Source: Boothiomyces macroporosus
Taxonomy: Eukaryota; Chytridiomycota; Chytridiomycetes; Rhizophydiales; Terramycetaceae
Direction of reading: 5' to 3'
DNA: 64,000 nt
NCBI GenBank assembly: GCA_027604185.1
Contig: JADGKB010000016.1
Span: 1 to 64,000 of the forward strand
The notes below the pieces were generated by a model. The model had not been told where the DNA came from. It worked only from the letters and a program-made list of their open reading frames with translations, and searched no databases. Position 1 is the first letter of the stretch. Each line of letters opens with the position of its first letter. Below, in pieces: positions 2,709-62,500 of this stretch. Position numbers and translations under genes: made by a program.

Positions 2709-4493
2709 ATGTATCGATTGCTGAAAAGAAGGTGAGTGCTGCCTAACTCCAGCTACGCAACCAACAAAATCTCTTCACGTATCACACAGCCAAAGTCTCA
2801 AGGTGCATCCCAAGCGATGTGTAATTCAATATTAAAATCTAGTATTGGCAACTGGTTTGAAGCCAGAGCAGCTAAATTTAGCCCAAGTTGGCATCGCTTC
2901 CGTGTGGTATGAAGGAAATCCTTGCAACATGCATCTTTTGGATTTGGCCAACAGTGTTAAAAAAGGAGTTCAAGATGCAGGATTGGTCGGATATAGATTC
3001 AATACTATCGGTGTTTCGGATGGGATCTCTATGGGAACTAGCGGCATGAGCTATTCCCTTCAATCCAGAGAGATCATTGCCGATTCCATTGAAACTGTGA
3101 TGGGCGGACAATGGTATTTGCGGTTTAATTCAGGTACGACGGCAATATTTCTATTCCAGGATGCGACAAAAACATGCCAGGCTGTATGATTGCTATTGCC
3201 AGAGTAAACAGACCAGCCTTGATGGTTTACGGAGGTACAATTCGTGCTGGAACTTCATGCTCTGGCAAACCTCTAGATATTGTATCTGCCTTCCAGTCGT
3301 ATGGTGAGTATTTTGCAGGAAAGATTTCTGAAGAGGAACGTGTAGATATTGTTCATCATGCTTGCCCAGGAGCTGGAGCATGTGGTGGTATGTATACCGC
3401 AAACACTATGGCCAGTTGTATTGAAGCATTGGGTATGACTTTGCCATACTCCAGCTCATGTCCTGCAGAGGATCCAATGAAACAAAAGGAATGTCAACAA
3501 GCGGGAGAAGCAATCAAGTATTTGTTGGAAAACGATATCAAGCCCTCTGATATTATGACTAGAAAGGCTTTTGAAAATGCAATGGTAGTATTGATGGCTC
3601 TTGGAGGGTCAACAAATGCTGTGCTTCACTTGATTGCCATGGCCAAAGCAATTGGAGTAAAGCTGAATATCGATGATTTCCAAAAGTTCAGTGATATGAC
3701 TCCATTCATTGCCGATTTGAAACCAAGTGGTAAATATGTCATGGAAGATTTGCACAAAGTAGGCGGCACACCAGCTGTGCTAAAGTATTTATTGGAAAAG
3801 GGCAGAATTCATGGAGACTGTTTGACAGTAACTGGTAAAACTTTGGAGCAAAACTTGGAATCTTTGCCTGGATTGACACCAGGACAAGATATTATTTATC
3901 CTCTAGAAAAGCCAATCAAACCATCTGGCCATTTGCAAATTCTAAAAGGAAGCTTGGCACCACTTGGTTCAGTTGCAAAAATTACCGGAAAAGAAGGTTT
4001 ATCTTTCAAGGGCAAAGCCAAAGTATACGATTGCGAAGAAGACATGTTGAAAGCTCTGGAAGTTGGTAAAATTGGAAAGGGAGATGTAATTATCATCAGA
4101 TACGAAGGTCCTAAAGGCGGTCCAGGAATGCCAGAAATGTTGACCCCAACCAGCGCAATCATGGGTGCTGGATTAGGAAAAGACGTTGCATTACTTACTG
4201 ATGGAAGATTCTCTGGAGGTTCTCACGGATTTATTATTGGACATATTACTCCTGAAGCTCAAGAAGGAGGTCCAATTGCCTTGGTTGAAGAAGGAGATGT
4301 CATTGAGATTGATGCCAGCAAGCAAACCATCGAATTATTGGTATCAGAAGAGGAGCTAGCTAGAAGAAGAAAGAACTGGGTAATGCCACCATACAAAGCA
4401 ACTAATGGCACCCTATGGAAATTCATTAAAAACGTAAGTATTTTTTAATTGTAGACTACAGACGCATCAAATGGGTGCACAACTGATGAATGA
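2709..4493 (+). CDS. ILV3: Dihydroxy-acid dehydratase
   Basis: Third enzyme of valine/isoleucine synthesis: an Fe-S dehydratase making 2-oxo acids in mitochondria. Five exons are joined by introns at 2732-2752, 2821-2842, 3114-3133 and 4434-4454 (20-22 nt), giving 566 aa, the normal family length. The start M-Y-R-L-L-K-R-S-Y-A-T is a basic, Ser-rich mitochondrial presequence. Family blocks follow in order: S-Q-A-M-L-x-[29 protein letters not shown] and the cluster motif [10 protein letters not shown]. Later come [23 protein letters not shown] and a C-terminal D-A-S-N-G-C. The third intron is a clear 20-mer, GTATTTGCGGTTTAATTCAG. The organism can therefore make branched-chain amino acids, which argues against an extremely reduced parasite. 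Confidence 0.96.
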
Positions 4494-4518
4494 TTCAATA
4501 AAATCCATGTTGATAAGT

Positions 4519-5279: not shown

Positions 5280-5321
5280 TTTTTGCATTTTGGGGAAAAA
5301 GACAGCATGCTTTATACTCAT

Positions 5322-6369: not shown

Positions 6370-6399
6370 AAATCCAAATAAAATTTGTTCTTATATTTA

Positions 6400-6622
6400 T
6401 TAAGCCTTTTGTTTCTTTTCCCACTCGTCCCTAACTAACGCAATTCTAGCCAACTACATTAACAAAACTTACTTCCTTTTTATGAAACAAACATTCCTGG
6501 TAATCTTCAAACGCATTTTTACATTCTCCTTGTTGCTCTGATTGTACATGGCATTTGGCGAATTCCTGCCAGAATGGAAAACATCTTCCTCTTCCTCCAT
6601 TTGTTCCAAAGCCTGACGACAT
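6400..6622 (-). CDS. Complex I subunit NDUFS5-like (twin CX9C)
   Basis: A 67-aa accessory subunit of mitochondrial NADH:ubiquinone oxidoreductase on the intermembrane-space side. The start M-S-S-G-F-G-T-N-G-G-R-G-R-C-F-P-F-W-Q-E is characteristic of NDUFS5. Two CX9C motifs are present, C-x9-C in CFPFWQEFAKC and again in CKNAFEDYQEC. A 19-nt intron (6454-6472, GTAAGTTTTGTTAATGTAG) must be removed to reach the end E-W-E-K-K-Q-K-A. I preferred the Met at 6622 over one 30 nt upstream because it starts the conserved block. Complex I is therefore retained. Confidence 0.85.
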
Positions 6623-6901: not shown

Positions 6902-8266
6902 TTATATTTCAGCCAACATGTTTGTCAGTTGAATCAAGACATCCTGGGTTTCTTCAGGATTAGTAATCCACTAACGTTAAAAGTATTTACAATGGTACAA
7001 CAGCAATTTCTAGTTGCAATATCATTCCCAGTTGAAAGGAATTGATCGCCAACATGCAGAGTCTCGTGTCCTTCGGTTTTTAATAGTTCTTGAAGCACTT
7101 TGACACCGATTAGTTTGTTACCTATATCTACCCATACATCACTCCCGCCATTGAATGCGCAGTATGGGATTGTGTTTGAAAATGGAATAGAGATTGACTT
7201 GCCTATTCTTCTCCTTTTTGTAGTTGGTGAGCCTGGGATTTTGTTGAAATTGTGTTGGTCTAGAACAGCTTGGACAGCTAGTGATAATTCATCCAACTTT
7301 TTTAGTTTGATTTACCTGTTCGCGAGATAACTTGAATCCTGGTTTAGGAGATACACCGACTGCTCTCATCTTTCGAATAATAGAAACTTTTTGCTCGTAT
7401 CCCATTTCTTTGAGTCTCTTTTTCAAGTGATTTTCAGCAACATTGAGCATTTCCTGGATACGATCCTCATCTGTAGACCACTCTTTCAAGAACTCTGGCT
7501 GGTATTCTTCTTCTGGAATATAGTGCAAGTGCTCATCCTCAGGGCTGTATTGGAACAGATAGTTGCCTAGATTAGCAAGATTTACATTCTCCTCCAAGTA
7601 CATAAAAGTTGGAAAATATATCCTTGTTCTTTTTAAAGTTTCTAAACCCATCTAGCAGCCCAGATAGTCGTTGTTCGTATCTTACTGCATCGCCCGGATA
7701 TCCAGCAGCAGTTACAATAGCTACTTTGATTCCATGCTGCAGTAACGAAATAATTAGCCCAACCAATGCTGAATCTTTAGCAAAATCTTGTCCATCGGCA
7801 TACAAAGTGTAATCTCCATCAAAAGTAATAAGCTTCAATTGCTTTGCGATTTCTAAAATTTGGGCGTGATTTAGCAAGTGACGAATATCGTTGAACGATG
7901 GCGGTACAAATCTTCTAGTTGAAATCGATCTATTCTCATTGATATATTCATAAGCTTGCTGCAGAGGAAGCTTTGTAAAGAACCGCCTTTGTTAACTTTC
8001 AAATACCCCAAAGATGGAACAAGCCTATTCAACCTCGCGCTGTCCGGTTTGCCCATCTGAACACAGTTGATGTGATCTTCAACTAGCTCTTCAATACATC
8101 CAAGAATTTCCAAATATCTTGGAGTATTTCGATCCTGCTGTTCTTTTGGTTTTGTTGATAAAATAAACGGTGTTAGTAAGAGCGACTTTATAAATTCGAT
8201 AAAGCGGTCTCGTTTGTGTGCTCTGAGCTGATAAGTAACGTCGTAGAGTGATGTGCGGGAGGACAT
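6902..8266 (-). CDS. ISN1: IMP-specific 5'-nucleotidase
   Basis: Fungal-type ISN1, which dephosphorylates IMP to inosine. The 426 aa (yeast about 450) begin M-S-S-R and include L-K-S-H-like R-A-H-K-R-D, the block R-L-N-R-L-V-P-S-L-G and F-V-P-P-S-F-N-D-I-R-H. The HAD-type aspartate motif follows as I-T-F-D-G-D-Y-T-L-Y, then A-I-V-T-A-A-G-Y-P, and later G-G-S-D-V-W-V-D and H-V-G-D-Q-F-L-S-T-G-N-D. Introns at 7567-7585 (19), 7297-7315 (19) and 6971-6990 (20) are standard. The first, around 7971-7996, is atypical: its donor is GTTAAC, it is 26 nt, and a 38-nt alternative acceptor also keeps the frame. ISN1 supports a fungal affinity. Confidence 0.92.
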
Positions 8267-8556: not shown

Positions 8557-9066
8557 TTATTGACAAGTAGGGGTATGCCCAAATGTATTTGCAGGCATAG
8601 CAGGGTTTCTGTCACCACCTTTGACTTTGGCGAGACAATCTGCTAGTTTCCCTGCACCAGATGCACCAGCAGCAGCACCACAAGCGTTACATTTTGCAAT
8701 CAAGGCTTCAGCAGAAGTTACAGCAAATGATCCTGATGAAGTGCACAGTGATCCATTCAAATTGCCGCAAGGTGGTAATCTTTGGTCGTTAGACGCGTTG
8801 GTGTTTGTATTTGTGACAACTGCCTTGGAGTCATTAGCACCTTTTCCGTTAACAGCTTTTCCGTTACCACCTTTTCCATTAGCACCTTTTCCACTAGCAC
8901 CCTTTCCATTAGCACCTTTTCTATTAGCAGCTTTACCCTTTCCCTTGTTCTTTTTCTTGCCTTTTTCTTTGGTTTTTGCAGGATCACGAGCAACAAGTTC
9001 ACTAGATTGCGGAATCACAACAGCATTGACAGCAACAGTAGCAAGCAGAGCAATAAAGAATTTCAT
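8557..9066 (-). CDS. Secreted protein with Lys-Gly-Ala-Asn repeats
   Basis: About 169 aa from the Met at 9066 (an in-frame Met at 9078 adds four residues). The N-terminus M-K-F-F-I-A-L-L-A-T-V-A-V-N-A is a classical signal peptide. Next come a basic stretch, six or seven degenerate G-K-G-A-N/S-G units (about residues 45-85), and a C-terminal part with six cysteines (C-G-N-L-N-G-S-L-C, C-N-A-C, a D-C, and a final T-C-Q) that could form disulfides. I recognise no family. A cell-wall or host-surface protein is a reasonable inference. Strong repeat-driven codon bias also creates long open frames on the opposite strand. Confidence 0.65.
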   Translation of the reverse strand: MKFFIALLATVAVNAVVIPQSSELVARDPAKTKEKGKKKNKGKGKAANRKGANGKGASGKGANGKGGNGKAVNGKGANDSKAVVTNTNTNASNDQRLPPCGNLNGSLCTSSGSFAVTSAEALIAKCNACGAAAGASGAGKLADCLAKVKGGDRNPAMPANTFGHTPTCQ

Positions 9067-11337: not shown

Positions 11338-11352
11338 AAAAGTTAATTTTTC

Positions 11353-13268
11353 ATGTTCAAACTCGGACTTGCAATTTTACTATCTTGCCTTGTATTCCTA
11401 TTCCTAGGATTCGATCTACCAGATGCTGATGTGCGGATTAGCAAGCACAAGCTAACGAGTTGGCTAAACTCTCAGACTGAATTCTCAAAGGAGAGAATAC
11501 AGAGCCAGTAAGTAAATCTAACCTAGTATTCTGGCAAATGGAGCCTTGACTGCAGGAGTAGGAGTAGGATATCCATTTGAGATCCAAGACCACTACCATT
11601 ATTTTTGGGTCCGCGATGGAGGTATCCCGAGATAATATAGGAATCTCTATGCTGCAGCTGGCAGAGTTTCATGCAGATCCTAAAGTGCAAGAGCAGTTTG
11701 AACTGTTTCATCAGTGGACTAGGTTAGTGCAACAAAACGACGACGGATTTGGATATACGAGATTTGATCTAGTAAATGGCAAGCCAGACTACAATTGGAT
11801 GAGCCCTCAATATGATGGATTTGCGTTCAGAGCACTGGCATTCATCAAATATGCAAAAAATTGTGGTGTCCGATATGACGATGTGATCAAGCAAGATTTG
11901 GACAGTATTTTAAAAGTGTGGAATAGGAATGATGGGTATGAGCCGTGGGAAGAAGTAGTTGGAGAGCACTATATGGTTCTACTGGTCCATATGGAAGCAT
12001 TATTCCAAGGATCACACTATTTTAATGACGAATTATATTTGGAAACGGCAATTCTGATAAAGAATAACTTGAAACGATTCTACAATGGAGAATGGATCAA
12101 ATCTACACTGAATGGGTATTGTAAAGAGAACGACAAGAATGAAGGAGCAAGAACAAAAGTGCAATTGAACAATTTCATTGACATTTCAAGTGTACTTGGA
12201 TTAAATATTGCTACTGAACCGTTTAGAACAGAATACGAAAGTTTGCAGACATTCTATGAGCTGGTCAATAGTTTTGCTTATAACCAACATTCACCGCCTA
12301 TAAAATTATCTTCGTGGGCATTAAACAATGTTACATGTTCATCAGACGGATACGAAATGGCTCCAGGAATAGGAAGATATCCCGAAGACATATTTGATGG
12401 AATTGGGTATATGTTTGAAGGCAAGTACAAGAGTTTTGGAGCAGGGTTTTGGTTTTTGGCTACCAATGCCATGGCAGAATTCTTGTTCAAACTAATCCAC
12501 GACTATGAGAACCTAGAAATGGTTGAAATTAATGAAAAGTCCAAAAAGTTTTGGGAGTTTATCGGAATAGACTATACTGGACAAGTTTACATCGGAGACT
12601 ATCGATTTGACTCTATTTTAGACGCGATATTCATTAAAGCTGATTCGTTTATACATCGAACTAAAGAGTATGTGATTGATGGGTACATGTCTGAACAGTT
12701 TCACTACCTGACTGGGTCTCAAATGTCAACTTCAGATCTATCGTGGAGCTATGCCTCTATTATTAGTGTAAATTCAGCTAGGAGAAAGGTATTGCGAAAT
12801 GTAGAGCCGAAAAGGTGCAATGCCACTGCTTATCCTACTTGCCCATTACCTTGCAAGAACCATTGTGGGTTTCCAAAGAATCAACCAAGATGTGTGGCTA
12901 GGAATGCCGAGGAGTGTCATTCACTAGGGTGTTGCTGGGTCCAAAGAGATATTTTACATCCTGTTTGTATGCTATCTCTAGATCAACCTTCTCGTATTGG
13001 CACTATTTTTGAAGTTGAGCACCATGTTGAATATGGCCAGACTCTCTCTGTAGTTGGAACGTTTAACGATTGGGATACATGTTCTGGTTTAGAATGCCAA
13101 TGGACTCTCGGGGATATATGGAAATGCCCAGGATTTATTGGTTCAAAGAAAGAGTACCAAGTCAAAGCTATCGTGTACACTGATTGCTCTGTGGTTGAAT
13201 GGCAAAAAGGGGAAAATATTAAATTTACAACGACAGGTAAACCACAGTTGATAAAATTCAAATTCTAA
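11353..13268 (+). CDS. Glucoamylase (GH15)-trefoil-CBM20 fusion
   Basis: Introns at 11508-11526 and 11622-11640 (19 nt each) give 625 aa. Residues 1-18 form a signal peptide or anchor. Residues about 40-465 are a GH15 catalytic domain with H-Y-F-W-V-R-D-G-G, W-M-S-P-Q-Y-D-G-F-A-F-R-A-L-A, the acid motif Y-E-P-W-E-E-V (about 183) and the base motif M-S-E-Q-F followed by D-L-S-W-S-Y-A (about 434). A P-type trefoil module follows at about 476-520, with C-G-F-P, then E-C-H-S-L-G-C-C-W-V. The end is a CBM20 starch-binding domain with G-Q-T-L-S-V-V-G-T-F-N-D-W. It should release glucose from starch or glycogen outside the cell or in the secretory route. A trefoil placed between GH15 and CBM20 is unusual. 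Confidence 0.9.
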
Positions 13269-14780: not shown

Positions 14781-15225
<445 letters not shown>

Positions 15226-15375: not shown

Positions 15376-15993
15376 ATGAAGCACAACAACGTTCTTCCAA
15401 ATCAACACTTCCGTAAAGATTGGCAATTGCATGTCAGAACTTGGTTCGATCAACCAGGAAAGAAAAAGAGCAGAAGAACAACTCGTTTGCAAAAGGCTGC
15501 TAAAATTGCACCAAGACCAATTGATGGATTGTTGAGACCAGCAGTTCGTTGCCCAACTTTAAAGTACAACACCAAATTACGTGCTGGACGTGGGTTCACC
15601 ATTGAAGAATTAAAGGTTTTTATAGTTTAATATCAGGAAGCTGGAATTCGTCGCAAGGAAGCTTTGACCATCGGTATTGCTGTAGACCACCGTCGCAAGA
15701 ACCGCTCTGTTGAATCTGTAAAACAAAACGTTGCCAGACTTGCTGAATACAAGGCTAAATTGATTGTCTTCCCTAAGAAGAAGGCTGATGTATCTGAAGC
15801 TGTCCAACTTAAAGGAGCTTTGTTCCCAGTCCAACAACCAGTCAATGAAGATGTTGAACGTAAGATTAGCTCTGTTGCTCAAATTGAAGCTTATGCTACT
15901 TTGAGAAAAGCTCGCTCTGACAAACGTTTGAAGGGTACTCGTGATGCTAGAGCAAAGGCAAAGGCTGAAGAAGAAGCAAACAAGAAGAAATAA
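15376..15993 (+). CDS. RPL13: Ribosomal protein eL13
   Basis: Large-subunit protein of 198 aa. It starts [16 protein letters not shown] and has the family blocks [29 protein letters not shown] and [13 protein letters not shown]. One 21-nt intron lies at 15616-15636, directly after E-E-L-K. Its donor is the unusual GTTTTT. Confidence 0.97.
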
Positions 15994-17043: not shown

Positions 17044-18420
17044 ATGGGTAAAGAAAAGGGACACGTTAACGTTGTCGTTATTGGACACGTCGATTCTGGT
17101 AAATCTACTACTACTGGTCACTTGATCTACAAATGTGGTGGTATCGATAAACGTACCATCGAAAAGTTTGAAAAGGAAGCTGCTGATATGGGCAAAGGTT
17201 CCTTCAAATACGCTTGGGTTTTGGACAAATTGAAGGCTGAACGTGAACGTGGTATCACTATTGATATCGCTTTGTGGAAATTCGAAACTCCAAAGTACAA
17301 CGTCACCGTCATTGACGCTCCTGGACACAGAGATTTCATCAAGAACATGATTACTGGTACCTCCCAAGCTGATTGTGCTATTCTCATCATTGCTGGTGGT
17401 GTTGGTGAATTCGAAGCTGGTATCTCCAAGGACGGTCAAACCCGTGAACACGCTCTTTTGGCCAACACCCTCGGTGTCAAGCAAATGATCATCGCTGTCA
17501 ACAAGATGGACACCAACAAATGGTCCGAAGCTCGTTTCAACGAAATCGTCAAGGAATTGTCCTCCTTCGTCAAGAAGGTTGGTTACAACCCAAAAGCCAT
17601 TCCATTCATCCCAATTTCCGGATGGCACGGAGACAACATGTTGGAACCTTCCACCAACATGCCATGGTACAAGGGATGGACCAAGGAAACCAAGGCTGGT
17701 ACCCAAACTGGTAAGACCCTTTTGGATGCCATCGATGCTATCGACCTCCCAACCCGTCCAACCGACAAGCCATTGCGTCTTCCACTTCAAGACGTTTACA
17801 AGATTGGTGGTATTGGTACAGTCCCAGTCGGTCGTGTTGAAACCGGTATCATCAAGGCCGGTATGGTTGTCACCTTTGCTCCAGCTAACGTAACCACTGA
17901 AGTCAAATCCGTCGAAATGCACCACGAAATGTTGGAACAAGGTGTTCCTGGTGACAACGTTGGTTTCAACGTCAAGAACGTTTCCGTCAAGGATATTCGT
18001 CGTGGTATGGTCTGCTCAGACTCCAAGAACGACCCAGCAAAGGAAGCTGCCTCATTCACTGCTCAAGTCATCATCATGAACCACCCTGGACAAATCTCTG
18101 CTGGTTACTCTCCAGTTTTGGATTGCCACACTGCTCACATTGCTTGCAAATTCAACGAACTCAAGGAAAAGCTTGACAGACGTTCTGGTAAGAAGGTCGA
18201 AGACAACCCAAAGTTCGTCAAGGCTGGTGATGCTGCTATCGTTGAATTGATCCCAACCAAGCCAATGTGTGTTGAATCCTTCACTGAATATCCACCTCTT
18301 GGTCGTTTCGCTGTCCGTGACATGAGACAAACCGTTGCTGTCGGTGTCATCAAGGCTGTAGACAAGACCGAAAAGGCTGGTAAGACCACCAAGTCTGCTG
18401 CCAAAGCTGCCAAGAAATAA
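17044..18420 (+). CDS. TEF1: Translation elongation factor EF-1alpha
   Basis: A 458-aa GTPase that brings aminoacyl-tRNA to the ribosome. Motifs are G-H-V-D-S-G-K-S (P-loop), D-A-P-G-H-R-D-F (G3) and N-K-M-D (G4). The opisthokont insertion [19 protein letters not shown] is close to that of yeast. No intron interrupts the coding region. Codon use is strongly biased to C-ending codons, unlike its neighbours, as expected for very high expression. That bias produces a 345-codon antisense open frame which is not a gene. A single intact copy argues for EF-1alpha rather than EFL use. Confidence 0.99.
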
Positions 18421-19266: not shown

Positions 19267-21337
19267 TTATTTCATCCAAGGATGGGTTAGTGCTTGATCG
19301 ATTGTTATACGAGCGGTGATGTCGGAATTGAGCAAGCTTCGTAATAAACTTGTGCATTCATTTGATAGTTCGTATGGCAGAACTAGTTCGTTTTTGAGTA
19401 TTTCTTGGTGCGTGTAGAACGGCGTGTCTTTGTATATCATTGCGTATAGGAGGATACCAAGTTGCCACATGTCTTGCGGTTTGCCTTCGTACGGATGTCC
19501 CAAGAGCGTTTCTGGTGGAGAGTACAATGATGTGCCGTAAAAAGTAGTGAACGGGCCTGAGGAACAATACGCGCTACTACCAAAATCAATTAATTGAATA
19601 TTTTCATTCTTGTCTATCAAAATATTCTCATCCTACGATTAGGTAATGTTACTTTTAAATCTCTGTGTACAATATCCATAGAGTGGATTATTCCAATCGC
19701 TTCTAAAACTTGTTTGTAAATCCTTTTGATAGAGTTTTCTGCCAGGTTGCTGGATTCGATATATTCAAAGAGGTCTGTAGAGTCTGTGTATTCTGTAATG
19801 AGGAAATAGAAAAAGTCGTCATAGAAAAAGTGAAGCATGTTTGGTAGTAATGGCGATTTCTCTTTGAGATCGTGGAGTACAGCTATTTCTGTCGGTACTC
19901 TACCCAGTGTCTCTGATCTATGGAATGTTAAAATCCTGGTTCTGACGATATACTTCATTACGAGAGGAAACTGTGGTTAATTATAATTACAGTTGGATCG
20001 GATTTTAGTGAACATAATTTCACATAACTATGCGCTCCTTCTCCTAGTGCTTTAATAACTTCAAAATCTTCAATTTTGTGTTTTGTAAATATTGGTTTAA
20101 CTTGCTTTTTTGATATGTTTGGAATTAGATCAGGACTTGCCAGTGGAAACTGCTCCTTGTTTGTTTTATAGTCGGTGGTGGTTTCTACGGCTAACGTTTC
20201 AATTAAAGGCGCTTCTTCCTTTGAGAAATTCAACCATATAGCATACAACGGGTCTTCAGCATTTGAAGGTTTCCATATTCTACCTTGTATTGAAACCGGT
20301 AACAGAGATCCATCTCTATGCCTTAGATTCACTAGACGCGGCTTTGAAGTGCATTGTACACAAGAGTTTCTGGATGATGATGGACTATGAGCGCAACTAC
20401 TTGGATCATAGTCCGCCAATTGGCAACGCGGCGAGTGAATGAAAGGCTCTTTCTGATTCATTTCGCGCAGCTCCCATTCCATATCTTTGATGAATCCCCA
20501 AAACGTTGGAATGATATCTGTGATATCGATCCCTATAAGATCGTCTTTTGATCGCCCAATTAGTGCCTTTGAAAGCTGATCATTTACACAATCTATAAAT
20601 CCCTGCTGGCTTACTGTTACTAATCCTGCTATAGTTGGCATTGAGGTAAGCGTTACTGAGTATTGTTCGTGAACCTTTTCAACTATGGTTAACGATAGCT
20701 ACTTTTAGCTGACAGCGGAAACAGATTCTTGTCCTTTCCGCAAAAGTATTTGAACAAAGTGATTTCTTCAAAGATATCTGTTGCATCCAGTTTAGGAATT
20801 ATGACTGATAGCGGCTTGTTGATAAGAGAAATACTTGGAAAGAGGTTCTGAAAGGCGCCACCAACTACATGATCCTGAATTAGTGGAAATTACATTCTCT
20901 ATTATAAGGGTACACTGCTGTTCAACAATCTCCTCAATGTCCCACACATATACACAATTATTATCTACAAACTTTTCCTGAATTTTTGCTACTGCTTTGA
21001 ACGTCTCGCCGTTGGATTTCCTTACGGTGACCTAGTATTAAAGCTTATCTACTATCGATTCTTGCATAATATCGTCCGGCGGATCTATAAATCTTGTCAA
21101 GCTCTTTCCAATAATATCATCCTCCTTCTACGTTAGAAACAAGTACCAGATTTACCGCTTCCAGAAATTCAAAATTTGCAGTCAAAATATTTAGCTTTGT
21201 CGTGGTTGTAACTGTAGATTTTTTGGTCTGTGGTTAGGGATAAATACAGTGATATCAAAGTGAGTGGATAGGTCAGCGAGATTGTCCTTGGATATGCGAA
21301 GAAGGATATTTGGACATGAGAGATCTTTTTGCTTCAT
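19267..21337 (-). CDS. PAS-domain protein kinase (PASK/PSK type)
   Basis: Nutrient-sensing kinase. Seven introns (21228-21247, 21128-21155, 21032-21052, 20875-20893, 20683-20702, 19971-19990, 19633-19652) connect eight exons into about 640 aa. The first PAS-like region has I-L-T-A-N-F-E-F-L-E-A and D-D-I-I-G-K-S-L-T-R-F-I-D-P-P-D-D. A second sensor region has A-G-L-V-T-V-S-Q-Q-G-F-I-D-C-V-N. The kinase shows L-G-E-G-A-H-S-Y-V, H-R-D-L-K-D-E-N-I-L, D-F-G-S-S-A-Y and H-P-W-M-K, matching PASK. Met 21337 is the first ATG in frame. The frame stays open to about 21430, where it meets the divergent thioesterase start, so the true 5' end is uncertain. Its stop is 1 nt from that of the CAP-Gly gene. 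Confidence 0.88.
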
Positions 21338-21430: not shown

Positions 21431-21972
21431 ATGGTACTAGAACGATTCCAAAAAATATTCAATAGGAATCCGCTATTGCGCAACGTAAGATGGAGCTAAT
21501 AGGAGATGGTGATTACAAAGACTGGGCCGTCCTTTGTGGTTTGCGAGGTGATTTTGTGGTTAAAAATAGATGAAAGTGGAGGATATGCACTTGAATATGA
21601 ATGACAAGCTGTTTGGGGGAGTTATCGCTACTCTGATTGATATCGGAGGTTCGTTGGATTAATCTAGGCTCCCTAGCAATCGCACAAAAAGTTAAAGGAC
21701 CGAATGTGGGTGTATCAACGGATATGACAATGTCCTTCCTTAGTGCGGCTGTGAAGGATGATATTGTGAGGTAAGAGTCATGTAATTAGAATTGAATCAA
21801 CTTGTCACAAGAGCGGAAAATCACTCGCATTCACCAAAGTAGATTTATTTGTCAAAGACAGGATGATTGCTACTGGAAGGTTGTTTTGGATTAATTTAGC
21901 CATACCAAATACGTAGCGCTCCCTATAACAGAAGAGATGATGGATAAATACTTGGAAAAGTGGGAAAAGTAA
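21431..21972 (+). CDS. Hotdog-fold acyl-CoA thioesterase (ACOT13-like)
   Basis: Six small exons, introns 21485-21502 (18 nt), 21548-21569, 21649-21667, 21771-21789 and 21880-21899, give 147 aa. The order of motifs matches ACOT13/THEM2: V-C-E-M-K-V-E-D-M-H-L-N, then F-G-G-V-I-A-T-L-I-D-I-G-G-S-L-A-I, G-V-S-T-D-M-T-M-S-F-L-S-A-A, and a final A-T-G-S-H-T-K-Y. The expected active-site Asp in L-I-D is present; the usual H-G-G is F-G-G here. It hydrolyses long-chain acyl-CoA, probably at mitochondria. The first intron, GTAAGATGGAGCTAATAG, is the shortest resolved in the window. Confidence 0.85.
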
Positions 21973-35666: not shown

Positions 35667-35765
35667 TTTTCAAACTTTATTGTCAAAATGCAGGAGGGTG
35701 GGCCAGATTTCCCATCCACTTTGAATTTCGTATCCATGAAAGTTGCAAAAACGTTGATTTATTAG

Positions 35766-36797
35766 TTATTTATAATTGGGGACTTTTCTGGTTTTTGGCT
35801 CATGGCAATCTCCTGCTTGAGGCTCTACGGGTTGAATATCATCAAATATTGCAGGAGTGGACTTTTTAAGATGATTTGTTTTTTCTAACCCACCACGGCT
35901 CTCTTTTTGACTTTTGTCCACAGATTTCTATATTAATTTCGCTTACAGGCATTGCTGACAGTTGCGCACTATCTGGCCTATCTGGCTTCAGTTCTGTCGA
36001 TAAAGTCTATCTAAATCTAAAAATTACCTTTAAATCCGTGCTGTTCTTGAGATTTACCTTTTCAGTATCCTAACATTAGCAGCCGTTTACCGCCAATAAA
36101 TTTCCCACACTTTTTCTCTTTGTGTGAACTTTTGCATCAACTTGATCGAGTTTCATTAGATTGCCGGCACTTTTTCTTCGATCGTTTATTTTTGTCAAAT
36201 CTGTATTTCTACTGGTATCATCCAACTTGCTCCTGCTCGAAAGCAAGCTTCCTTTGCTTCCCCCGTTCTTGTTAATCAAGAGTTACCGATTTCTATATTA
36301 AAAATTGTACTACAATCTAAATTAGTGCTAGTTACATCAGGCAATTGCGATCTTTCTTTTGGAGATTTAATTTCGGCATCATTCAAAGGCAATCTTGCCT
36401 TTCCTTTGCCAAGTTCATTCATAGTGTTCGTTTTTTCTTTACTTGGCATTCTATTATTAAGGGGCGAATTGGCGCCTAGCTCCAATATATTGTGGGTGCT
36501 GCTCAACAGCATATCCATTTCTCTTCCGGCTTTGGTATTTTTCTTATCTTCCTTGATATCATCCAATAAACTTGGTACAGAACCCCTCTTGTTTAGCATT
36601 TGCGTAGATCCATAGTTATTACCCGACAGAGCCTTTGTATTTAAGGCTTCTTTACTCTTGGACATTGTATCATTTAATTCGTTAATTGATGAGATTCTTC
36701 TCATCTGTTGCAAACCTACTGAGGCATGCTCATAGTTAGAAGTATCCCTGAGGGGCAATAGTACCTTTTCTTTTTTATTGCTCGTAGCCATTAACAA
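35766..36797 (-). CDS. Ser/Asn/Leu-repeat protein 2 of tandem trio
   Basis: About 303 aa. Repeated basic-Ser units with a Leu three to five residues later occur throughout: R-R-I-S-S-I-N-E-L, K-R-G-S-V-P-S-L-L, R-R-K-S-A-G-N-L and K-R-K-S-V-G-N-L-L. These fit CaMK/AMPK-type substrate spacing. Clear introns are 36070-36090, 36007-36027 and 35928-35946. Between 36268 and 36335 three consensus-like introns (19, 21, 19 nt) would leave exons of 6 and 3 nt; alternatively one or two longer introns. The end, K-V-P-N-Y-K, echoes the third gene's I-P-T-Y-N-L. Function unknown. Confidence 0.6.
36268..36335 (-). other. Compound intron cluster with candidate 3- and 6-nt exons
   Basis: Three consecutive intron-like units on the minus strand: 36335-36317 (19), 36313-36293 (21) and 36286-36268 (19). 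They leave ATT and AAATCG between them. The frame also allows removal as one 68-nt intron, or 43 nt plus 19 nt. Confidence 0.55.
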
Positions 36798-36849
36798 TGG
36801 GGTGGATTTGTTCTAAAATGGAAAGATTTAATACCCAAGAATATATTTA

Positions 36850-38257
36850 TTATAGATTATAAGTAGGAATCTTTCTTTGCGGTTCTTCAATTAGTTTTAG
36901 AGGAGTTGGTCGTGGTAGTGGCACGTCTTCGAAAATGCCATTGGTAGAGGACCTCTTTTGTTTATCTATATCTTCCATACTTTGCTCTAATTTGGTAATA
37001 CTTGAAGGCCCGGAACTGGTAGAGTTCCTTGCGCTTTGACTAGGAGAGAGACTGGAAAAGATCTGGTTAAATCTCCCTTACTTTCATTGAAGAAGCTGCG
37101 TTTGCCCTCAACTTTTCTTTTTCAACTTCGGGCAACGGCTTGAATCCATTAGTGTATCCTGCATTTAAAGAAAAATCACCTGTAAATTTCACATCTTCGT
37201 TGCTGCTTTTTTCGTGTTTGTGTTTCGCGTCTTCATATAATCTCTTGTACACTTCTGAATCGGGCCCCTTTGTAAACAAAACAGTACATTCAATGATGAT
37301 AGTGAAGCATAGCTCTTTCCAAGCTTGTTTACCGAAAGGTTGCTTGCTTGCTTGCTTAACGAAGCAACACTTCCACTTAGATTCACAGATGATCCGTAAA
37401 TACTCCTTGCTTCTTGCTGTCTCTTTATTGCTTCCATTTTTGCCTTGTGTGCCGCGGGATAGTTGTTTGGGTCTGTCAATCTTGACGTGACATCTACCTA
37501 AAGTCAGCACCAAATACCATTTTCATGTAATCGCTTTCACTTGCTGAAAGTCCTGGCGCAATACCGCCAGCCTGAGTAACCTGTTTATATCTCATTTAAA
37601 AAAAGGTTTAAAGGGTGTTTGAAAAAGAAAAAGGATTGAAGAGAATGACGTACCTCTTGGAATCGGACAGACTTAATGTTAGCAACATATTACCCCATAA
37701 TGTTTTGGTTTTTCTGTGGGATTAGCATCAGCGATTTTTGGCAGACTGGTAGAGGCAGAAGATTTTGGTCTAGCACTTTTCTCTCCTGGAAATATAATCA
37801 CATCACCTTCTGCTTCTTCCTCTATTGAATCTGTAATTGGTTTTCTAATGCTTTGAAGCACTGAAAGCTTGTTTAGCACTGCAGATGATCCGTACAGGGA
37901 TTTCTGCACACTAAAAAATGACTGGTTGGATTTCCATAAATTGCTCTGTGCTTGTTCCAGTTCTGATTCCATGCTTTTAGTGGTTTTATCCATAGCCCTT
38001 CTTTCTGGGTCTATTTGTGCTGCATTCACTGAGCTCATACTTCCAAATCTTCTGCCTGCAGTAGAGCTTCTTTCATCTTTTAATTGATCCAACGAGCCTC
38101 TACTTCCATATTTCGATCCCCTGATGTTACTCATGCTTCCCGTTTTTAAATCATTAGTTGACCCAGCCGATCTAATTGACAAATTGGAAATGCTTCCATC
38201 TCTACGTTTGCCATGTTTGCGTATTGAAGGCGATGCATTCTCTGTTGAATTCTCCAT
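36850..38257 (-). CDS. Ser/Asn/Leu-repeat protein 3 of tandem trio
   Basis: 417 aa in six exons; introns 37672-37693 (22), 37581-37653 (73, far longer than usual), 37498-37517, 37268-37287 and 37063-37081. The second exon is 18 nt. The N-terminal 90 residues repeat G-S-x-S-N-L-like units (G-S-I-S-N-L, G-S-M-S-N-I, G-S-R-G-S-L). A block shared with gene 1 follows, then Y-G-S-S-V-N-L-S-G-S-V-A-S-L-S and a Lys-rich helix. All three genes lie head-to-tail within 3.4 kb, so they arose by duplication. No catalytic motif is visible; a phosphorylated scaffold is an inference. Confidence 0.65.
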
Positions 38258-51721: not shown

Positions 51722-53224
51722 ATGAGTGCACAATCTCGAGCTCTCAGAGTTATCAAAGCTGTTCAGGCTGCTTCCAGCCAATGCCCTTGCCATGGCTCTG
51801 GTCATCACCACCACATGAGCTCTCACAATGGAGTAAAGGATACTGACTATGCATTTGAAGTACTTGTATTCTAATCGCAGCTTGCCACCTCAAATATTAG
51901 ATATGGTCTCGGAGTAACAAAGGAAGTCGGTATGGATATGGCCAACTTGAAAGCAAAGAAAGGTACTTGGATTTAACCATAGTCGTCGTATTCACTGATC
52001 CAAACATTGCAAAGCTTGGACCACTCAAGGCTGTCGTTGAATCATTGGAAACATCCAAAGTTCCATATGTAGTCTACGATGGAGTAAAGATTGAACCTAC
52101 AGATATTAGTATCAACCACGCTGTTGCATTCGTCAAAAAGGAAAGGCCAGACGCATTCATTGCCGTCGGCGGTGGTTCCGTTATCGACACTGCTAAAGCT
52201 GCCAACCTTTACCTCTCACACCCTGAATCTGACTTTTTGGATTTCGTCAACGCACCTATTGGTAAAGGGATTCCGCCTTTCAAACCAGTTTTCCCATTAG
52301 TTGCTGTTCCAACAACTGCAGGAACTGGTAGTGAAACCACCGGAACTTCAATTTTCGATTACACCCCTAAAAAGTTCAAAACTGGTATTGCATTCCGTTC
52401 TCTGAAGCCACTTTTGGGTCTAGTTGACCCTTATAACACCAGAACTATGCCACCTCAAGGTAGAATATTTCTAATGTAGTTCATGTTTCTACTGGCTTGG
52501 ATGTGCTCTGCCACTCTTTGGAATCCTACACTGCCATTCCATACAATGAAAGATCTCCACGTCCAAAGAATCCAATCTTGAGACCAGCTTACCAAGGTTC
52601 CAACCCTATTTCTGATATTTGGTCTTTGAAATCATTGAAAATGTGTATTGACAATCTTCCAAGAGCTTACAAGAACCCTGATGATCATGAAGCTCAGGAA
52701 CAAATGATTTTGGCTGCCACATTTGCAGGTATTGGTTTCGGAAATGCTGGTGTTCACTTGTGTCACGGAATGAGTTACCCAATTTCTGGATTAAACAAAA
52801 AATACAACCACCCAGGATATCAACCAGGAGTGCCATTGGTTGTAAGTTCTATGGATTAATTGTAGCCCCACGGTATTTCTGTAGCTTTATCTTCACCTGC
52901 TGTATTTGAATTCACTGCTCCAACTGATCCAGATCGTCACTTGGAGGCTGCAAAATTGTTTGGTAAGTTTTTCTAATGTTAGGTGTTGATGTTTCTAATG
53001 TTAAACGTGAAGATGCTGGTAAAGTATTGAGCGATGCCCTCAGAAAGTTCCTTCACACTCTTGATGTCCCAGATGGTCTTGAAGCTATTGGATTCAACAA
53101 ATCCCAGCTCAATGACTTGGTTTTGGGCACACTTCCTCAACATCGTGTTACTAAATTGGCTCCATCTCCAGTTGGCGCTGAAGAATTAGAACGCTTATTC
53201 GAAAAATCATGGAGATTATATTAA
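51722..53224 (+). CDS. ADHFE1: Hydroxyacid-oxoacid transhydrogenase
   Basis: Mitochondrial iron-type alcohol dehydrogenase relative that oxidises 4-hydroxybutyrate using 2-oxoglutarate. Introns 51860-51880, 51963-51982, 52460-52479, 52842-52865 (24 nt) and 52963-52982 give 465 aa. The basic start [12 protein letters not shown] could target mitochondria. Motifs are [42 protein letters not shown] and the metal-binding [12 protein letters not shown]. Length and all blocks match ADHFE1/HOT. Confidence 0.93.
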
Positions 53225-54240: not shown

Positions 54241-54268
54241 TAGAAAATTACAAGTCCGAAATTATTTT

Positions 54269-56544: not shown

Positions 56545-56584
56545 CAAAAAACGCGAAATTATTTCATATCTTTTATTGAAAACA

Positions 56585-59500
56585 TTATGCAAACCCAAAC
56601 CCTGAAATTTAGCCACATAGTCCTTACCTGTACCGCACTCAGAGATTGCCATTAGCAAAGCTGCCCGGAGCTGTTCGTAGTTGTCATACTGGGGCAAATC
56701 GATTTGATTAAAACTAGGAATTAAAAAACATCTACCATGTATGAGCACTAGGAAGTCTAGTATTGGATGAAAATTCTCTGTGAATTTGGAATTTCTGAAT
56801 ACCTGTCGAACCCTGGAGTTGGGCAAAACCTCCTAATGGGACTTTACTAGTTCCAGTTGCAAATTGAATGAGCTTTGCACGTTCTTCCTGCGAAAAGCTG
56901 CGAACTGCCCTCCAGAACCATTGGATTTGAGGGGAGGTAGATGTGTAGTTCTGATATTCTGTGTTATTTTTCCAGTCATCAATATCAATATCTGGTAATC
57001 CAGAAATTAGTAGCTCCAGTTCTTGCTCGTTGAATATCTTTATCAAATCCCTAGGAATAATTTCATGGAAACCGTTCAAGAACGCTTGAATCTGGTCCTT
57101 GATTGCTAGAACTAACTTTTGTTCAGTCACCAGCCTAACATATTCAGTTTTATTGGCCTCTGTGACCGGAATATTACGTCCGTTTTCCTTTAAATCAATT
57201 ATTTTCTGTTTTCCAAAATCATCAACCTCCAATGAGAATGTTAAATCCAAAACATCTGTGATATCATTGTTTAACATCCAATCCAAAGATTTATAAAACT
57301 CTGGGTCAATGGCTTCCATGTCCCTGTGATCTACAGGGCTGTTTATGATACATTTGTAGAAGGATCTAGTGAAATAAGCATCCAGCAGTCTTCCGTCATA
57401 AATTGCTTTCCCGATAATTCTTCCTACAAATTTAAAGTAGAACAAATGATCAGGATTAATACCAGATGTTCTGTTTGGCTGGTATGTAACTTTGTCAGCA
57501 GCCGACGGCCTAAACAGTGCATAATCTGGATTAAACATCTGCAGAGCTAAAGCTGAAAACCATTCTCGAGTGACACCTCCAGCATCAACACCCTCTTCAT
57601 CTCTAAACCGAACATTTAGCTTCCCGTATTTTATCGCATCTCCAGATTTACCTTGCAGCTGCTGATAAGATTCTTCAAAGACATATTGCCTACGAACATT
57701 AATCTGAATAGAGCCATGGCTAACTCTTGCTATAGAATTTTTGTGCAACTGCTGAGTGAAATATGTTCTCTTATTGTCAAATTGGAGGACTTTTGGGTTT
57801 TGAACCAGCAGCGAAAATGAGCCATTCATCAAAGATGGGTTATTTCTCACCATTGTGTTTAAAATCTTTTTGTGAGCTTCCGCGAATGTAAAGAAAGAAT
57901 CCTGTTCGATCTCCGAGATTTCAGAGTGCTGCTTCAAGAGGACATTTGGCAGTGAAACTGTGTTTGTCAGTGGCTTTTCTTTGGATAGCGAAACTGAAGG
58001 TGTAGAAATAACCATAAATGATTCAATCAGAGGTAATATAATAGTAGCTACGTGTATCAAGTTTTCGTTGTTTTCGATAATATCCATGCATTCTCCAAGC
58101 TCAGTCCATAATTTGGCGAATTTCAACTCTTCGTAATGTGATTTAAGAGTTTCCATATCAGATGATTTACCGTTTGATCCAGCTTTGTCTATGTAAAGTA
58201 ATAAATACCTTGATTTTTAGAAAACATGAAATCCACGCTCTTCAAAATTCGCAATAATTTAGCTTGACTTGCAGTGGCAGAGATGAAAGGCTCCAAAGCA
58301 GCCTTGTCGACATTTGTACCAGGCGTTGTGGGAGCAACTTTGAGCTTTTCAACAAGTAGATCTAAATCATCTACTACGATATTTCCTAGGCTTTGAGCCG
58401 ACTCCAAAATTGCTTTTGTTATGATTTTCATATTTTCAGGGAACGTACACAGCTGTTGGATAACAGCTAATGTGTGCTGAAAAGTTCTGCTTGAACATAC
58501 GGCTCCTTTTAGGACGTTGACCACATTGCGGACACTATTATCTGGTATTTTTGGTAATTTCACATCAGGTTTTTCTTTTCTATCTTTTGTAGGAGTCTTC
58601 ATGGAATCCTTTTCTTCTGGTTCAGAGAATTTCTTCTTGGCCAAGTGTGCTAACGGCCTTAAAACATTTGATAGCAACTGCATCAATTGTTCAAGCACAA
58701 CGCCATTTTGTAAAAACGATGACTTTTCGAGCAAATTAAGGAGTAGCACCACTGGATAGCAATTTAAAGGATGGTACAACTTTTCCTTGCCTTTTGATTT
58801 CTTGGTAGATTTAGGTGTCTTTGAAGAAAGCGGATTTTCGATTTCAGTTAGGAAATATTTTCCAACTGCAGGACTAGATGTAACCAATTTCGTAAGAGAC
58901 TCTAAACACCGCTGAGCAACCAAATTAGGGATCTTATCAGATATATCATGATCTGAAAGGCTGTTGATTTTCTTTTCTTTTGCAGCATACGGCAAATTCG
59001 ATCTACTTTTCAAAGTAAGCTGTGCAAACTCTTTGTCAACACTTGCTAAATCATTACTTCCATGAACTAACACAGAAAACAATAGACCTAATAGTTCAGT
59101 TCTCGTTTTGGTGTTTTCACAAAGATTGCACAACAAACGGTCCAAGTAATCGTTACCCAAAGGTTCAGGTACAAATATCAAACGCAACAAGCTTGCCAGT
59201 CCAGGGAGATCAAGCAGTTGTGCACTTTCTTTACTATGAACATGTTTAGTCTTTGGAGTTGCAGCGTTGCTATTTTGTCCAGCGCTCGGCACAGGTATGT
59301 TGGATCGTAATGGGGTTGAGGTGGCTGCACCAACCGGATTTGATTCTCGTTGTTGATTCTCCATTCGTTCTTGTCTTAAAACTTCCTGGCGAATGGCATA
59401 AGGCAGCGCATTCAAAAACTCTGGGTTGATTTCAGTACTTTCCGGTGCATTCCCTGTCCTTTGAGAGCCTAATTCTCGCATATGCTGGTTTATAACCTCT

Positions 59501-62500
59501 TGTCTTAGATCATCTGGGAGAGCCTCTAAAAATGTTGGGTCAATTCCGGTTCCTACTATTAGAACAAGTTACCTGTAATGTCAATGTCATTTCCATCAAT
59601 AGTGACAAATACCCTTTCTTCTGTAGGTGGTGCGCTGGCAGTTGATTCCATTTCCACATCCTCATTGTTCTCTGCTTGAGAATGCTCTCCTTCTGATTCA
59701 ATCTGTTGTTCCCTTAGTTCCTTTTCCTTTTGAGCTTTCTCTTCCTCTTCTTTTTTTTTGTTTTCTAGCTCGATTCTCTTTTTTTCTTCTTCCAGAATTC
59801 GGATTTTTTCCATCGCTGGGGGTATCAGTCGCTCTAACAATGCAGTTGAAATTCTAGTTGCTTTGGAGTTTGCAAGTGTTCCGTAAAGAACTTTGGCCTC
59901 CTGTTTCCAACGCTCGTCAGTAAATAATAACAAGAATGAATGGATATGCTGAACTTGTTCTTTAAGAGGCGATGCTAGGACTTCCGGTTCGTTCTTCTGT
60001 GGTTCGACATTCGTTGCAGTATTGGCATGGGTATGTAAATGATGATGTTGAATTGAGTCCAAAAATCCAGTTCTTGCAAATATTTGGTCCATAAGATTAG
60101 TTGATATCATTGAACCTTCATCCGAATGGTTGATATCATTTAATAACCCATGCGCTCTATTATTGGATCTTCTGCTCGGATTTTGGGGTGTGTTATTTTG
60201 TGGATTAACCAAGAAGGGATGGCTCATATCCGTATTTGGTGCGCTTCCCGTTAAGTTTCTAATGTAAATAGGTGGGTCCGAATTATCCAATGGATTTCTC
60301 AGCAATGATCCCACTCCACGCATATCAATTATTCCATGATTCATATCGATTTCTCTGGCAAAGAGCTCCTGCATTCTGCGCGTGGCATTACCCGTTACCA
60401 TATCTGGATGCAAAACGAATGCATCATCCATAGGATCGTCCCCCAACATGTCCAATGGACCATCCAGTTCATCTTCCTCATCATCTCCATCTTCACCATG
60501 ATCATGCTCTTCATCTGCAATATTTTCTTGGTTCTCTTCATCTTCGTCATCTTCAGGCTCACTATCACCTTCGTCAATTTCCTCTTCGGTAAGCACTTCA
60601 GTCTGCCAGTGGGCTCCATCGTCAATGTGCATCTCTTCTTCACTTTCTAGATTCCCTTGCTCATCCTCTGAAGAAGTTACATCCTGATTTCCTTGGAAAG
60701 GTTGGGGCACAACAATTTCCATCTCATCTTCAGTTGATGATTCCTACAATTAAAAGAAATTACTCCATCCTCTTCAGAATCCTCTTCCATTTCTTCATCA
60801 CCTGAAAAAGTTTCAAACAAATCGGAATCTTCCTCCTCTGAATCACTTTCTTCTTCCTCAGATGCAGGATCTAGCATGCCAAGAGCAGAGTTACGATAAA
60901 CACTAGACAATTCATTTTCTTCCCCCATTGATTCATCCACAATTTCTCTAAACACTGAATCAAATGCATTTGAACTGATTGGCGTATTAGGTACTTTTTT
61001 CCCTTTGATTCCAATATTGACTTCCGATTTGCCAAGAGTAATAGCAGCTTTTGAAAAAACTTCAAGAGGCTTCAACACAGTTTCCACAACTTTTTGGCTT
61101 ATTGGATGATGAATGTCCAAATCTGCAAGGATATTTGTAAAAAGATTAACAAACCCTTTTTCAATCATCAGCTGAACTATCTGTAAAGTTGGTTCACTAA
61201 GGTTGGACGCTGATTGATTAGAACTTAATGTAACATTGTTCCCTTTAACTGTCAAAATTTTGTAACACAGTTCACAGAGATTAATAAGCTTTCCAAATCG
61301 GACTTCTGGGAGCAAGTCAATATTGTTGAAAGTATCCTTCAGGCTTTTAAATATAGAATCCAATACAATCGTTCTAATAGACTTGAGTTCTGCAGATCTA
61401 TTTTCATCCAATTTGCCTTTGTGGAAACACAATCCAGTGATCAAACAGCTCGCCCATGTGCTTTCAGTAACTTGGTGGGTGTGTCTGAACTTTTCAATCT
61501 TGCTGCTATCCAAATAAATGTTTTCTGGATGCATCAAATCATTTAGTAAATAGTTCAGGAATGGGTTTTTTGTAGGTGATTTTGGTGTTTGCTTTATGTT
61601 TTTCTTTTGAGTAGCACAGATCAGATCGACTTTGCTATCAAAATAGCAAACTACTAGTTCCGACAGGCACTGTAACAAATAGCACCTCCTAAGATGCAAC
61701 TTCATATTATCAACGTCGGCAATGTTAAATTTACTTTTCGATTTCAAGGTGAGTAACTCTGATGTTAGGTATGATACAATTTTTCCTGTGACTGAAGACA
61801 ATTTCTCTTCTGAGAAGATATGCTCCATCATCGAAGCCTTTGGAGTAGAATCGCCTTTGGAAACAACCTCGTTCTTGGGCTCGGCTTCAAGGGTGGGTTT
61901 GATATTAATTTGATGGCTTCTTGCATTTGGATCATAATGATATAATTCGCAGATATTGGAACAGACCTCCACAAATAATTCTGGATTTCTGCACACCAAA
62001 TGAGAGGTAGCTTTGATAAAAGTCTGGAGCTCCATGCTTCGAGGACGAGGTGATTTCAAAAAATTTGAAACATCAGCCTCTATTATCGCACGCAAAACAT
62101 CTTCGCTTTCCAAGCAGTGTCTTAGAATCATAACCACAAGAGATTGATGTGCCGGAAAGCTAGCAAACTTTTCATTCTTCAGGAGAGCAGAAATGCCATT
62201 TGACTGAACAAAAAGTTGGGAAAATTCAGTATTCCTAGTTAATCGAACCAATAACCGCAATACGGAATGAAGCAAATCGGAGTCAGTTGATTCGAAATTA
62301 ATGATTCTGATTAGTTGTATTAATAGCGTTTCTCGTTCTGCCCTTGTAAATTCACGCACAGAATTCCCTGAATTACTTTCCGAACTATCTGCAGGTTCAT
62401 CCACAAGCGAAATCACAGACTCTAAGAATAGCAGAAAGGGTGTATACCAATCTCTTTGATGCTGGCAATTTTCAATGAGAGTAAAGTATTCTGACACCTT

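Follow-up and report, generated by a model that had tools for sequence, protein, structure and literature searches.

Introns close to the physical minimum are described in nucleomorphs, ciliates and mikrocytids. Those of chlorarachniophyte nucleomorphs are given as 18–21 nucleotides (nt) and those of mikrocytids as 16–17 nt, the latter with a highly reduced spliceosome of 17–19 proteins in which U2, U4 and U6 were identified (PMC10245619). Introns of 15–16 nt are reported from Stentor coeruleus, together with a Cwc25 protein without the GGG motif (PMC9505925), and ultra-short introns of ~25 nt from Paramecium and Nyctotherus (PMC5014332). Microsporidian introns are described as few and relatively short (PMC10245619), and a mean intron of 63 bp in Cryptococcus neoformans is termed relatively short (PMC8476143). 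Here we analyse the introns of the chytrid Boothiomyces macroporosus (Terramycetaceae, Rhizophydiales) in a 64,000-nt stretch of its genome (positions 1–64000 of contig JADGKB010000016.1, our C16; hereafter, the window) and in further parts of the same assembly. Most are ~20 nt long, near the smallest sizes known, and they are probably true U2-type spliceosomal introns, reduced almost to the size at which U1 and SF1/U2 sit side by side.

The chytrid introns share practically the same length band with those described from nucleomorphs, as well as the large number of introns per genome, but a nucleomorph is a reduced endosymbiont nucleus, whereas this genome measures 15.2 megabases (Mb), encodes a protein identical to a deposited B. 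macroporosus one and has splicing parts that are conserved where examined. Mikrocytids, as described, resemble it in the narrow length class and conserved signals; their spliceosome is reduced, whereas here U1 and all seven protein families sought, a small tested set, were found. The reported features of Stentor include a fixed branch position, a short tail and conserved Prp8 and U1, U2 and U6 pairing sites, as here, although its branch adenosine lies at position 10–11 rather than 14–15 and the Cwc25 GGG motif missing there is kept here (MGGGDLNLKKSWHP). Paramecium and Nyctotherus also have ultra-short introns genome-wide, but these are longer and occur in ciliates; microsporidia, which are fungi or closely related to them, also have short introns, but are described as having few introns and a reduced spliceosome, in contrast to the many introns found here. 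Fungal introns in general are likewise spliceosomal, and chytrids retain many; compared with the C. neoformans example, those described here are about three times shorter and far more uniform. They are thus a fungal addition to the known class of minimal introns, surprising for fungi, and no fungus with introns of this kind is described among the matches listed from openly licensed literature. The deposited gene models of these public genomes already use some tiny introns, which makes the feature visible at the level of annotation, and a paper by Amses and others in PNAS probably describes some of these genomes. The case lies in the same kingdom as the yeasts with solved spliceosomes, and a chytrid with conserved parts would make the question of what sets minimum intron size testable.

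Length class and anatomy of the introns

Introns were called in 264 kilobases (kb), consisting of the window and 20 regions of 10 kb from the 15.2-Mb assembly (216 contigs), using a gene finder with an intron length prior that was flat from 10 to 150 nt and GT...AG ends as the sole requirement, without a splice-site model. The coding model had been trained on the same 264 kb in earlier rounds with splice-site scoring, and counts were limited to genes scoring >15. Introns of 18–22 nt made up 81 of 152 GT-AG calls; ten decoy dinucleotide pairs yielded 1–11 (mean, 6.2). The remaining GT-AG calls comprised 6 of 10–17 nt, 17 of 23–40 nt and 48 of 41–150 nt, and those longer than the short class showed no excess over the decoys (23–48 of 23–40 nt and 61–82 of 41–150 nt; mean above 40 nt, 75). 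Only the short class is therefore well clear of the noise. An earlier finder (order-2 coding model predating the rounds with splice-site scoring, lengths ≤200 nt) placed 20 of 51 GT-AG introns at 18–22 nt, compared with 0–6 for seven decoys; this model was dropped, given a total gene score of 1101 for GT-AG against 1056–1100 for the decoys and many spurious long introns. Raw counts of GTAAG...TAG spacing rise at 18–22 nt in the window and at 19–21 nt in the 264 kb.

In the window, the flat prior combined with learned splice sites gave 67 introns: 53 of 18–22 nt, one of 24 nt and 13 of 38–128 nt. Most of the 13 long calls are probably false, since the decoy test puts their length class at noise; no support was found for any of them. 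A fuller model with a prior favouring 18–24 nt gave 87 introns (85 of 19–22 nt, one of 24 nt and one of 113 nt), of which 72 lie in genes scoring ≥10. Window totals thus vary with the model used, and the fuller model misses some exons as well as 21-nt introns without a stop codon (stopless); high-scoring stopless 21-nt candidates inside exons numbered 14 on the sense strand and 1 on the antisense strand in the 264 kb. As a rough density that misses the stopless 21-nt introns, 59 of 90 genes hold 139 introns of 18–23 nt, over 164 kb of predicted coding sequence. A first-pass annotation made from the window alone had held that almost all introns are 18–22 nt long, which agrees with the decoy comparison and with the 30 homology-supported introns described below. 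Its total of ~125 introns in 37 genes is neither reproduced nor contradicted, because the finder misses exons and stopless 21-nt introns, and the divisibility by three that it notes for every rebuilt coding sequence is a consequence of the way in which such models are constructed.

The length class extends across the genome. A pattern of GTAATT, a gap of 1–31 nt and CTAAYNTAG (allowing intron lengths of 16–46 nt) matched 175 times in the 15.2 Mb, compared with 14 times for a reversed control. Among the matches listed (100 of 175), 59 were of 19 nt, 24 of 20 nt, 5 of 21 nt and 1 of 22 nt, that is, 89 at 19–22 nt, with the other 11 spread over 16 to 45 nt. Some matches sit in duplicated stretches, so not all are independent. 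Identical or same-scoring matches repeat across contigs (C49/C100, C20/C31, C36, C20) or ~42–45 kb apart within one contig, which suggests that the assembly contains segmental duplications or haplotypes left uncollapsed.

Introns called without splice-site scoring have an AG/GTAATTT-like donor (T at +5 in 47%, G in 16%), then a T-rich spacer, YTRAY and YAG. Among the 76 introns with the branch motif, the branch-like adenosine occupies intron position 14–15 in 66 and is separated from the intron end by 5–6 nt in 64. Both distances hold in 60 of 83 introns, 7 of which lack the motif, and in 58 of 2765 control GT...AG segments of 18–23 nt inside predicted exons. The branch point had previously been placed 10–13 nt from the donor, which these measurements do not bear out. 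Added together, these two short distances, each nearly constant, give an intron length of 19–21 nt. The introns have GT-AG ends, a branch adenosine at fixed short distances and a length band only a few nucleotides wide, at ~25 nt or less, the features expected of a minimal-intron lineage of the nucleomorph, Stentor or mikrocytid kind. Uniform length might also have arisen if a single intron-like mobile element (introner) had recently multiplied, and one 19-nt intron sequence, GTAAGTTTTGTTAATGTAG, is present three times in the genome. Given that the interiors differ by eye among the introns listed, which have only donor, branch and acceptor conserved, we consider this origin very unlikely.

Protein continuity across individual introns

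For 30 window introns, removal joins exons that match a protein from another species, a solved structure or the profile of a family. They comprise five in the hydroxyacid-oxoacid transhydrogenase (ADHFE1) gene, eight plus two stopless in a KH/SAM-domain gene, two in the dihydroxy-acid dehydratase gene, one each in the ribosomal protein S16, L13 and NDUFS5-like genes, two of three in the IMP-specific 5'-nucleotidase gene, two (one weak) in a TOM1-type ligase gene, four of five in a thioesterase gene and two of seven in a protein kinase gene. 'Gap-free' denotes the absence of a gap up to 8 residues on either side of the junction and says nothing about conservation. The introns of the metabolic, ribosomal and ligase genes are as follows.

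3114–3133, plus strand: 20-nt intron, dihydroxy-acid dehydratase gene; junction ungapped in 5ym0_A
4434–4454, plus strand: 21-nt intron near the C-terminus, dihydroxy-acid dehydratase gene; ungapped from the junction to the last residue, 5ym0_A
6454–6472, minus strand: 19-nt intron GTAAGTTTTGTTAATGTAG, NDUFS5-like gene; spliced frame matches Pfam Ndufs5
7297–7315, minus strand: 19-nt intron, IMP-specific 5'-nucleotidase gene; ab initio, alignment gappy there
7567–7585, minus strand: 19-nt intron, same gene; junction ungapped in 6rmd_D
7987–8006, minus strand: 20-nt intron, same gene; junction ungapped in 6rmd_D
14927–14948, minus strand: 22-nt intron, ribosomal protein S16 gene; 139 residues ungapped to 4v6w_AQ
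15616–15636, plus strand: 21-nt intron, ribosomal protein L13 gene; junction ungapped in 7pzy_t
21485–21502, plus strand: 18-nt intron, thioesterase gene; 2h4u_A gapped by 1 residue beside the junction, weaker support
21548–21569, plus strand: 22-nt intron, thioesterase gene; junction ungapped in 4ord_A
21649–21667, plus strand: 19-nt intron, thioesterase gene; junction ungapped in 4ord_A
21771–21789, plus strand: 19-nt intron, thioesterase gene; junction ungapped in 4ord_A
21880–21899, plus strand: 20-nt intron, thioesterase gene; junction ungapped in 4ord_A, alignment stops ~5 residues on
51860–51880, plus strand: 21-nt intron, ADHFE1 gene; 16/16 residues identical across the junction in Terramyces P0001
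51963–51982, plus strand: 20-nt intron, ADHFE1 gene; gap-free in 56/59 relatives
52460–52479, plus strand: 20-nt intron, ADHFE1 gene; gap-free in 59/59
52842–52865, plus strand: 24-nt intron, ADHFE1 gene, longest supported in the window; gap-free in 50/59
52963–52982, plus strand: 20-nt intron, ADHFE1 gene; gap-free in 58/59
56714–56735, minus strand: 22-nt intron near the end of the HECT domain, TOM1/HUWE1-type ligase gene; within the aligned stretch of TOM1/HUWE1 chains
58189–58208, minus strand: 20-nt intron, same ligase gene; continuous in 9egk_A but with little conservation and a 5-residue gap shortly afterwards
59553–59572, minus strand: 20-nt intron, TOM1/HUWE1-type HECT ligase gene; junction ungapped in TOM1 9egk_A

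The first ADHFE1 intron (51860–51880) is gap-free in 26 of 59 relatives, gapped in 2 and outside the alignment in 31. All three units that the first-pass annotation had quoted as typical were located (3114–3133, 21485–21502 and, on the minus strand, 6454–6472), and they differ in support. The junction of the first is ungapped in the dihydroxy-acid dehydratase alignment. Retention of the second runs the NDUFS5-like frame into a stop, whereas the spliced frame matches Pfam Ndufs5 over residues 12–64 (26.1 bits; cut-off, 21.2), a stretch that includes the junction at residue 50. The third, the 18-nt thioesterase unit, is a weaker case, with the 1-residue gap beside its junction in 2h4u and the alignment of the best chain beginning just past it; it was left out of the 30, as were 7297–7315 and 56714–56735.

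Relatives provided a closer view of the KH/SAM-domain gene (28233–31448) and the kinase gene (19267–21337), the introns of which are listed here, with counts for the former out of 15 relatives.

28445–28465, minus strand: 21-nt stopless intron GTAAACTCAAATTAATTATAG, KH/SAM-domain gene; kept as coding by the finder
28602–28622, minus strand: 21-nt stopless intron GTAAAAGCTACCCTTACTCAG, KH/SAM-domain gene; kept as coding by the finder
28860–28880, minus strand: 21-nt intron, KH/SAM-domain gene; gap-free in 5/15
29063–29082, minus strand: 20-nt intron, KH/SAM-domain gene; gap-free in 6/15
29201–29221, minus strand: 21-nt intron, KH/SAM-domain gene; gap-free in 8/15
29480–29500, minus strand: 21-nt intron, KH/SAM-domain gene; gap-free in 14/15, well conserved in P0152 and P0154 of seven shown
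30380–30398, minus strand: 19-nt intron, KH/SAM-domain gene; gap-free in 14/15
30606–30625, minus strand: 20-nt intron, KH/SAM-domain gene; gap-free in 15/15, well conserved in the three closest of seven shown
30872–30891, minus strand: 20-nt intron, KH/SAM-domain gene; gap-free in 15/15
31138–31157, minus strand: 20-nt intron, KH/SAM-domain gene; gap-free in 12/15
19633–19652, minus strand: 20-nt intron, kinase gene; gap-free in 4/4 proteins
19971–19990, minus strand: 20-nt intron GTAATTATAATTAACCACAG, kinase gene; P0121 and Terramyces P0123 gap-free, P0122 and P0124 gapped
20683–20702, minus strand: 20-nt intron, kinase gene; junction agrees with P0121 only, P0124 gapped
20875–20893, minus strand: 19-nt intron, kinase gene; ab initio, deposited P0121 without 20 further residues
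21032–21052, minus strand: 21-nt intron, kinase gene; junction agrees with P0121 only, P0124 gapped
21128–21146, minus strand: 19-nt intron, kinase gene; ab initio, deposited P0121 differs, without VNL
21228–21247, minus strand: 20-nt intron, protein kinase gene; junction agrees with the species' own P0121 only

The window kinase is identical to deposited B. macroporosus P0121 at 620 of 620 aligned residues, with two gaps, as the gene models differ there. Five kinase introns were excluded from the 30: 21128–21146 and 20875–20893, with which the deposited protein disagrees, and 21228–21247, 21032–21052 and 20683–20702, which match the species' own deposited model only. At 19971–19990, kinase P0122 of JEL0866 has V-I-I-I-N where the window intron is GTAATTATAATTAAC, as if it had been read into the intron. 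At 29480–29500 of the KH/SAM-domain gene, support comes from close relatives, because more distant ones share 2–4 of 16 residues; Terramyces P0153 has exactly 7 extra residues at this site. Boothiomyces sp. JEL0866 P0154 also has exactly 7 (GTFLLIL) at the site of 29063–29082, a stretch that would fit an unspliced 21-nt GT...TAG segment in that strain. The 7 residues encoded by the stopless intron 28602–28622 are kept in the JEL0838 protein and missing from those of JEL0728 and JEL0866. For 28445–28465, the JEL0728 protein keeps the encoded residues, and those of JEL0838 and JEL0866 lack them and show the expected S to R change. Relatives thus appear to carry such tiny introns too.

For these two genes, the proteins deposited for B. 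macroporosus, Boothiomyces spp. and Terramyces lack or gain residues where tiny introns lie. Public proteomes of the family therefore contain errors, which gives the finding a practical side. These conflicts between public gene models at several junctions would also be expected if the segments were assembly errors or inserts handled at the level of DNA or translation (deleted DNA elements or translational bypass) rather than spliceosomal introns. Against that stand the GT-AG ends, the branch motif at fixed distances, the decoy controls, the same junctions in separately assembled relatives and the presence of splicing small nuclear RNAs (snRNAs) and proteins, and we regard a non-spliceosomal origin as extremely improbable.

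In another window gene, the protein of Boothiomyces sp. JEL0838 is identical at 991 of 995 residues. Three window proteins have relatives on a single 139,796-bp contig of Terramyces sp. JEL0728 (HDV01_003668, 003679 and 003682), and these nearby gene numbers suggest conserved gene order.

Splicing machinery and the limit on intron length

Our survey of the machinery covered a small set, namely U1, U2, U6 and seven protein families. The U1 5' end is canonical (AUACUUACCUG; score 0.7 bit below the Rfam gathering score, E 3e-16), both copies of U2 have an intact GUAGUA and U6 an intact ACAGAGA; these matching pairing sites, together with the core proteins, identify a U2-type system. The two U2 genes (L024 and L025; 142 and 135 bits) have the branch-pairing region in common and differ chiefly in the 3' half. 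All seven protein families sought were found (Slu7, Prp18, SF1, U2AF65, Prp8, Isy1 and Cwc25), which is not the pattern of a reduced spliceosome that has lost many of its proteins. Slu7 matched 5xjc_Z at 426 bits and SF1 matched 7vpx_D at 273 bits, both of which we take to be human chains, and residues 6–1287 of the modelled part of Prp8 (1287 residues) matched a chain named hPrp8 (2456 bits). The U2AF65-like protein has three RRMs; at 230.7 bits its match falls short of the curated cut-off (310.3), which may result from the separate scoring of exons, and the search was also positive in 2 of 14 control genomes. Predicted Cwc25 starts MGGGDLNLKKSWHP and retains the N-terminal GGG plug, unlike the Stentor type. 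Loss of Slu7 and Prp18 had been predicted from the short branch-to-acceptor distance, following work in yeast; both genes are present. Tiny introns are also predicted within several of the splicing-protein genes.

The Isy1 gene bears on whether longer introns are removed. A 46-nt segment with donor GTAAGT (L043:1970–2015, contig C39) is flanked on both sides by ungapped alignment to 6ff7_w (ISY1), and of five AGs tried within 60 nt only this one preserves the conserved frame; longer introns therefore do occur. Its donor is nearer the U1 complement than average (9 of 11 positions; mean, 6.4). At the 5' end of the gene, L043:1434–1520 holds two 20-nt GT-AG units one base apart; the best model would have to place an exon of 1 nt between two introns of 20 nt, and no simple model tried keeps frame, which may reflect a nested intron or a wrong start. 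The best PDB match to the predicted protein begins at residue 37.

The first-pass annotation had gone on to propose a spliceosome specialised for introns of one fixed length, and had suggested comparing Prp8, SF1, U2AF and U2/U6 components with those of other fungi. A U2AF65-like protein was found, and SF1, the modelled part of Prp8 and the U2 and U6 pairing sites look ordinary. On the components surveyed, this part of the proposal is unsupported, although the proteins may differ in subtle ways. In its strong form, a spliceosome rebuilt as a length ruler would no longer remove longer introns efficiently, in line with the very narrow length distribution, the unusual T at +5 of the donor consensus and the lack of calls >40 nt above the decoys (48; mean, 75). 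The canonical snRNA pairing sites and the ordinary Prp8 part, Cwc25 GGG, Slu7 and Prp18 make such a ruler unlikely, as do the 24-nt ADHFE1 intron and the homology-flanked 46-nt Isy1 intron, given which intron length is not strictly fixed. A more speculative version, which we consider quite unlikely, is that the early spliceosome of Terramycetaceae is length-locked, with U1 and SF1/U2 acting as one abutting unit, introns above ~30 nt rarely recognized and the donor shifted to GTAATT; if true, what began as a lower size limit of splicing would in this fungus have become an upper one.

Shrinkage of genuine U2-type introns to near the point at which U1 and SF1/U2 meet is the explanation that we favour as probable. 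U1 at the 5' splice site would abut SF1/U2 at the branch site, and ~8 nt under U1 plus ~6 nt upstream of the branch adenosine would set a 14-nt minimum. The 5–6 nt that follow the branch would leave no space for a polypyrimidine tract on that side, and hence the T-rich stretch lies upstream of the branch, where the spacer may act as such a tract. Deletion bias and selection against longer introns could hold the length without a rebuilt spliceosome. As Cwc25 GGG, Slu7 and Prp18 are retained, a fairly standard spliceosome can apparently handle a 14–15-nt lariat loop and a 5–6-nt tail, and a fairly ordinary spliceosome at its limit would explain the data without a rebuilt machine. The first-pass claim of minimal, uniform introns in a fungus with compact splicing geometry is supported by sequence.

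Several points weigh against this explanation. Donors agree with the U1-complementary 11-mer at a mean of only 6.4 of 11 positions and have T more often than G at +5, so that a change in early recognition is possible. Together with the unusual +5 T, components beyond the survey set (U4, U5, U2AF35, SF3B1, SR proteins and the rest of Prp8) leave room for a modest specialisation. The footprints of U1 (~8 nt) and of SF1/U2 (~6 nt upstream of the branch adenosine) are general background figures, and removal of the introns is deduced from sequence and protein continuity.

Other features of the window

Two further features are a long predicted intron and, as a contrast, an intronless gene.

37581–37693, minus strand: 113-nt predicted intron, sole long one in the fuller window model; ab initio, no homology support
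17044–18420, plus strand: EF-1alpha gene (named by eye), one uninterrupted open reading frame

Scans of the window for transfer RNAs and Rfam families gave no match. The predicted protein at 8557–9066 has KGANGKG-type repeats and no Pfam match. Three adjacent minus-strand genes at 34912–38257 encode serine-rich proteins that are alike by eye; the one scanned had no Pfam match, and the three may be tandem relatives. An intronless gene at 11649–13268 encodes a glycoside hydrolase of family 15 with a weak C-terminal match to the starch-binding CBM20 (20.8 bits, below the cut-off).

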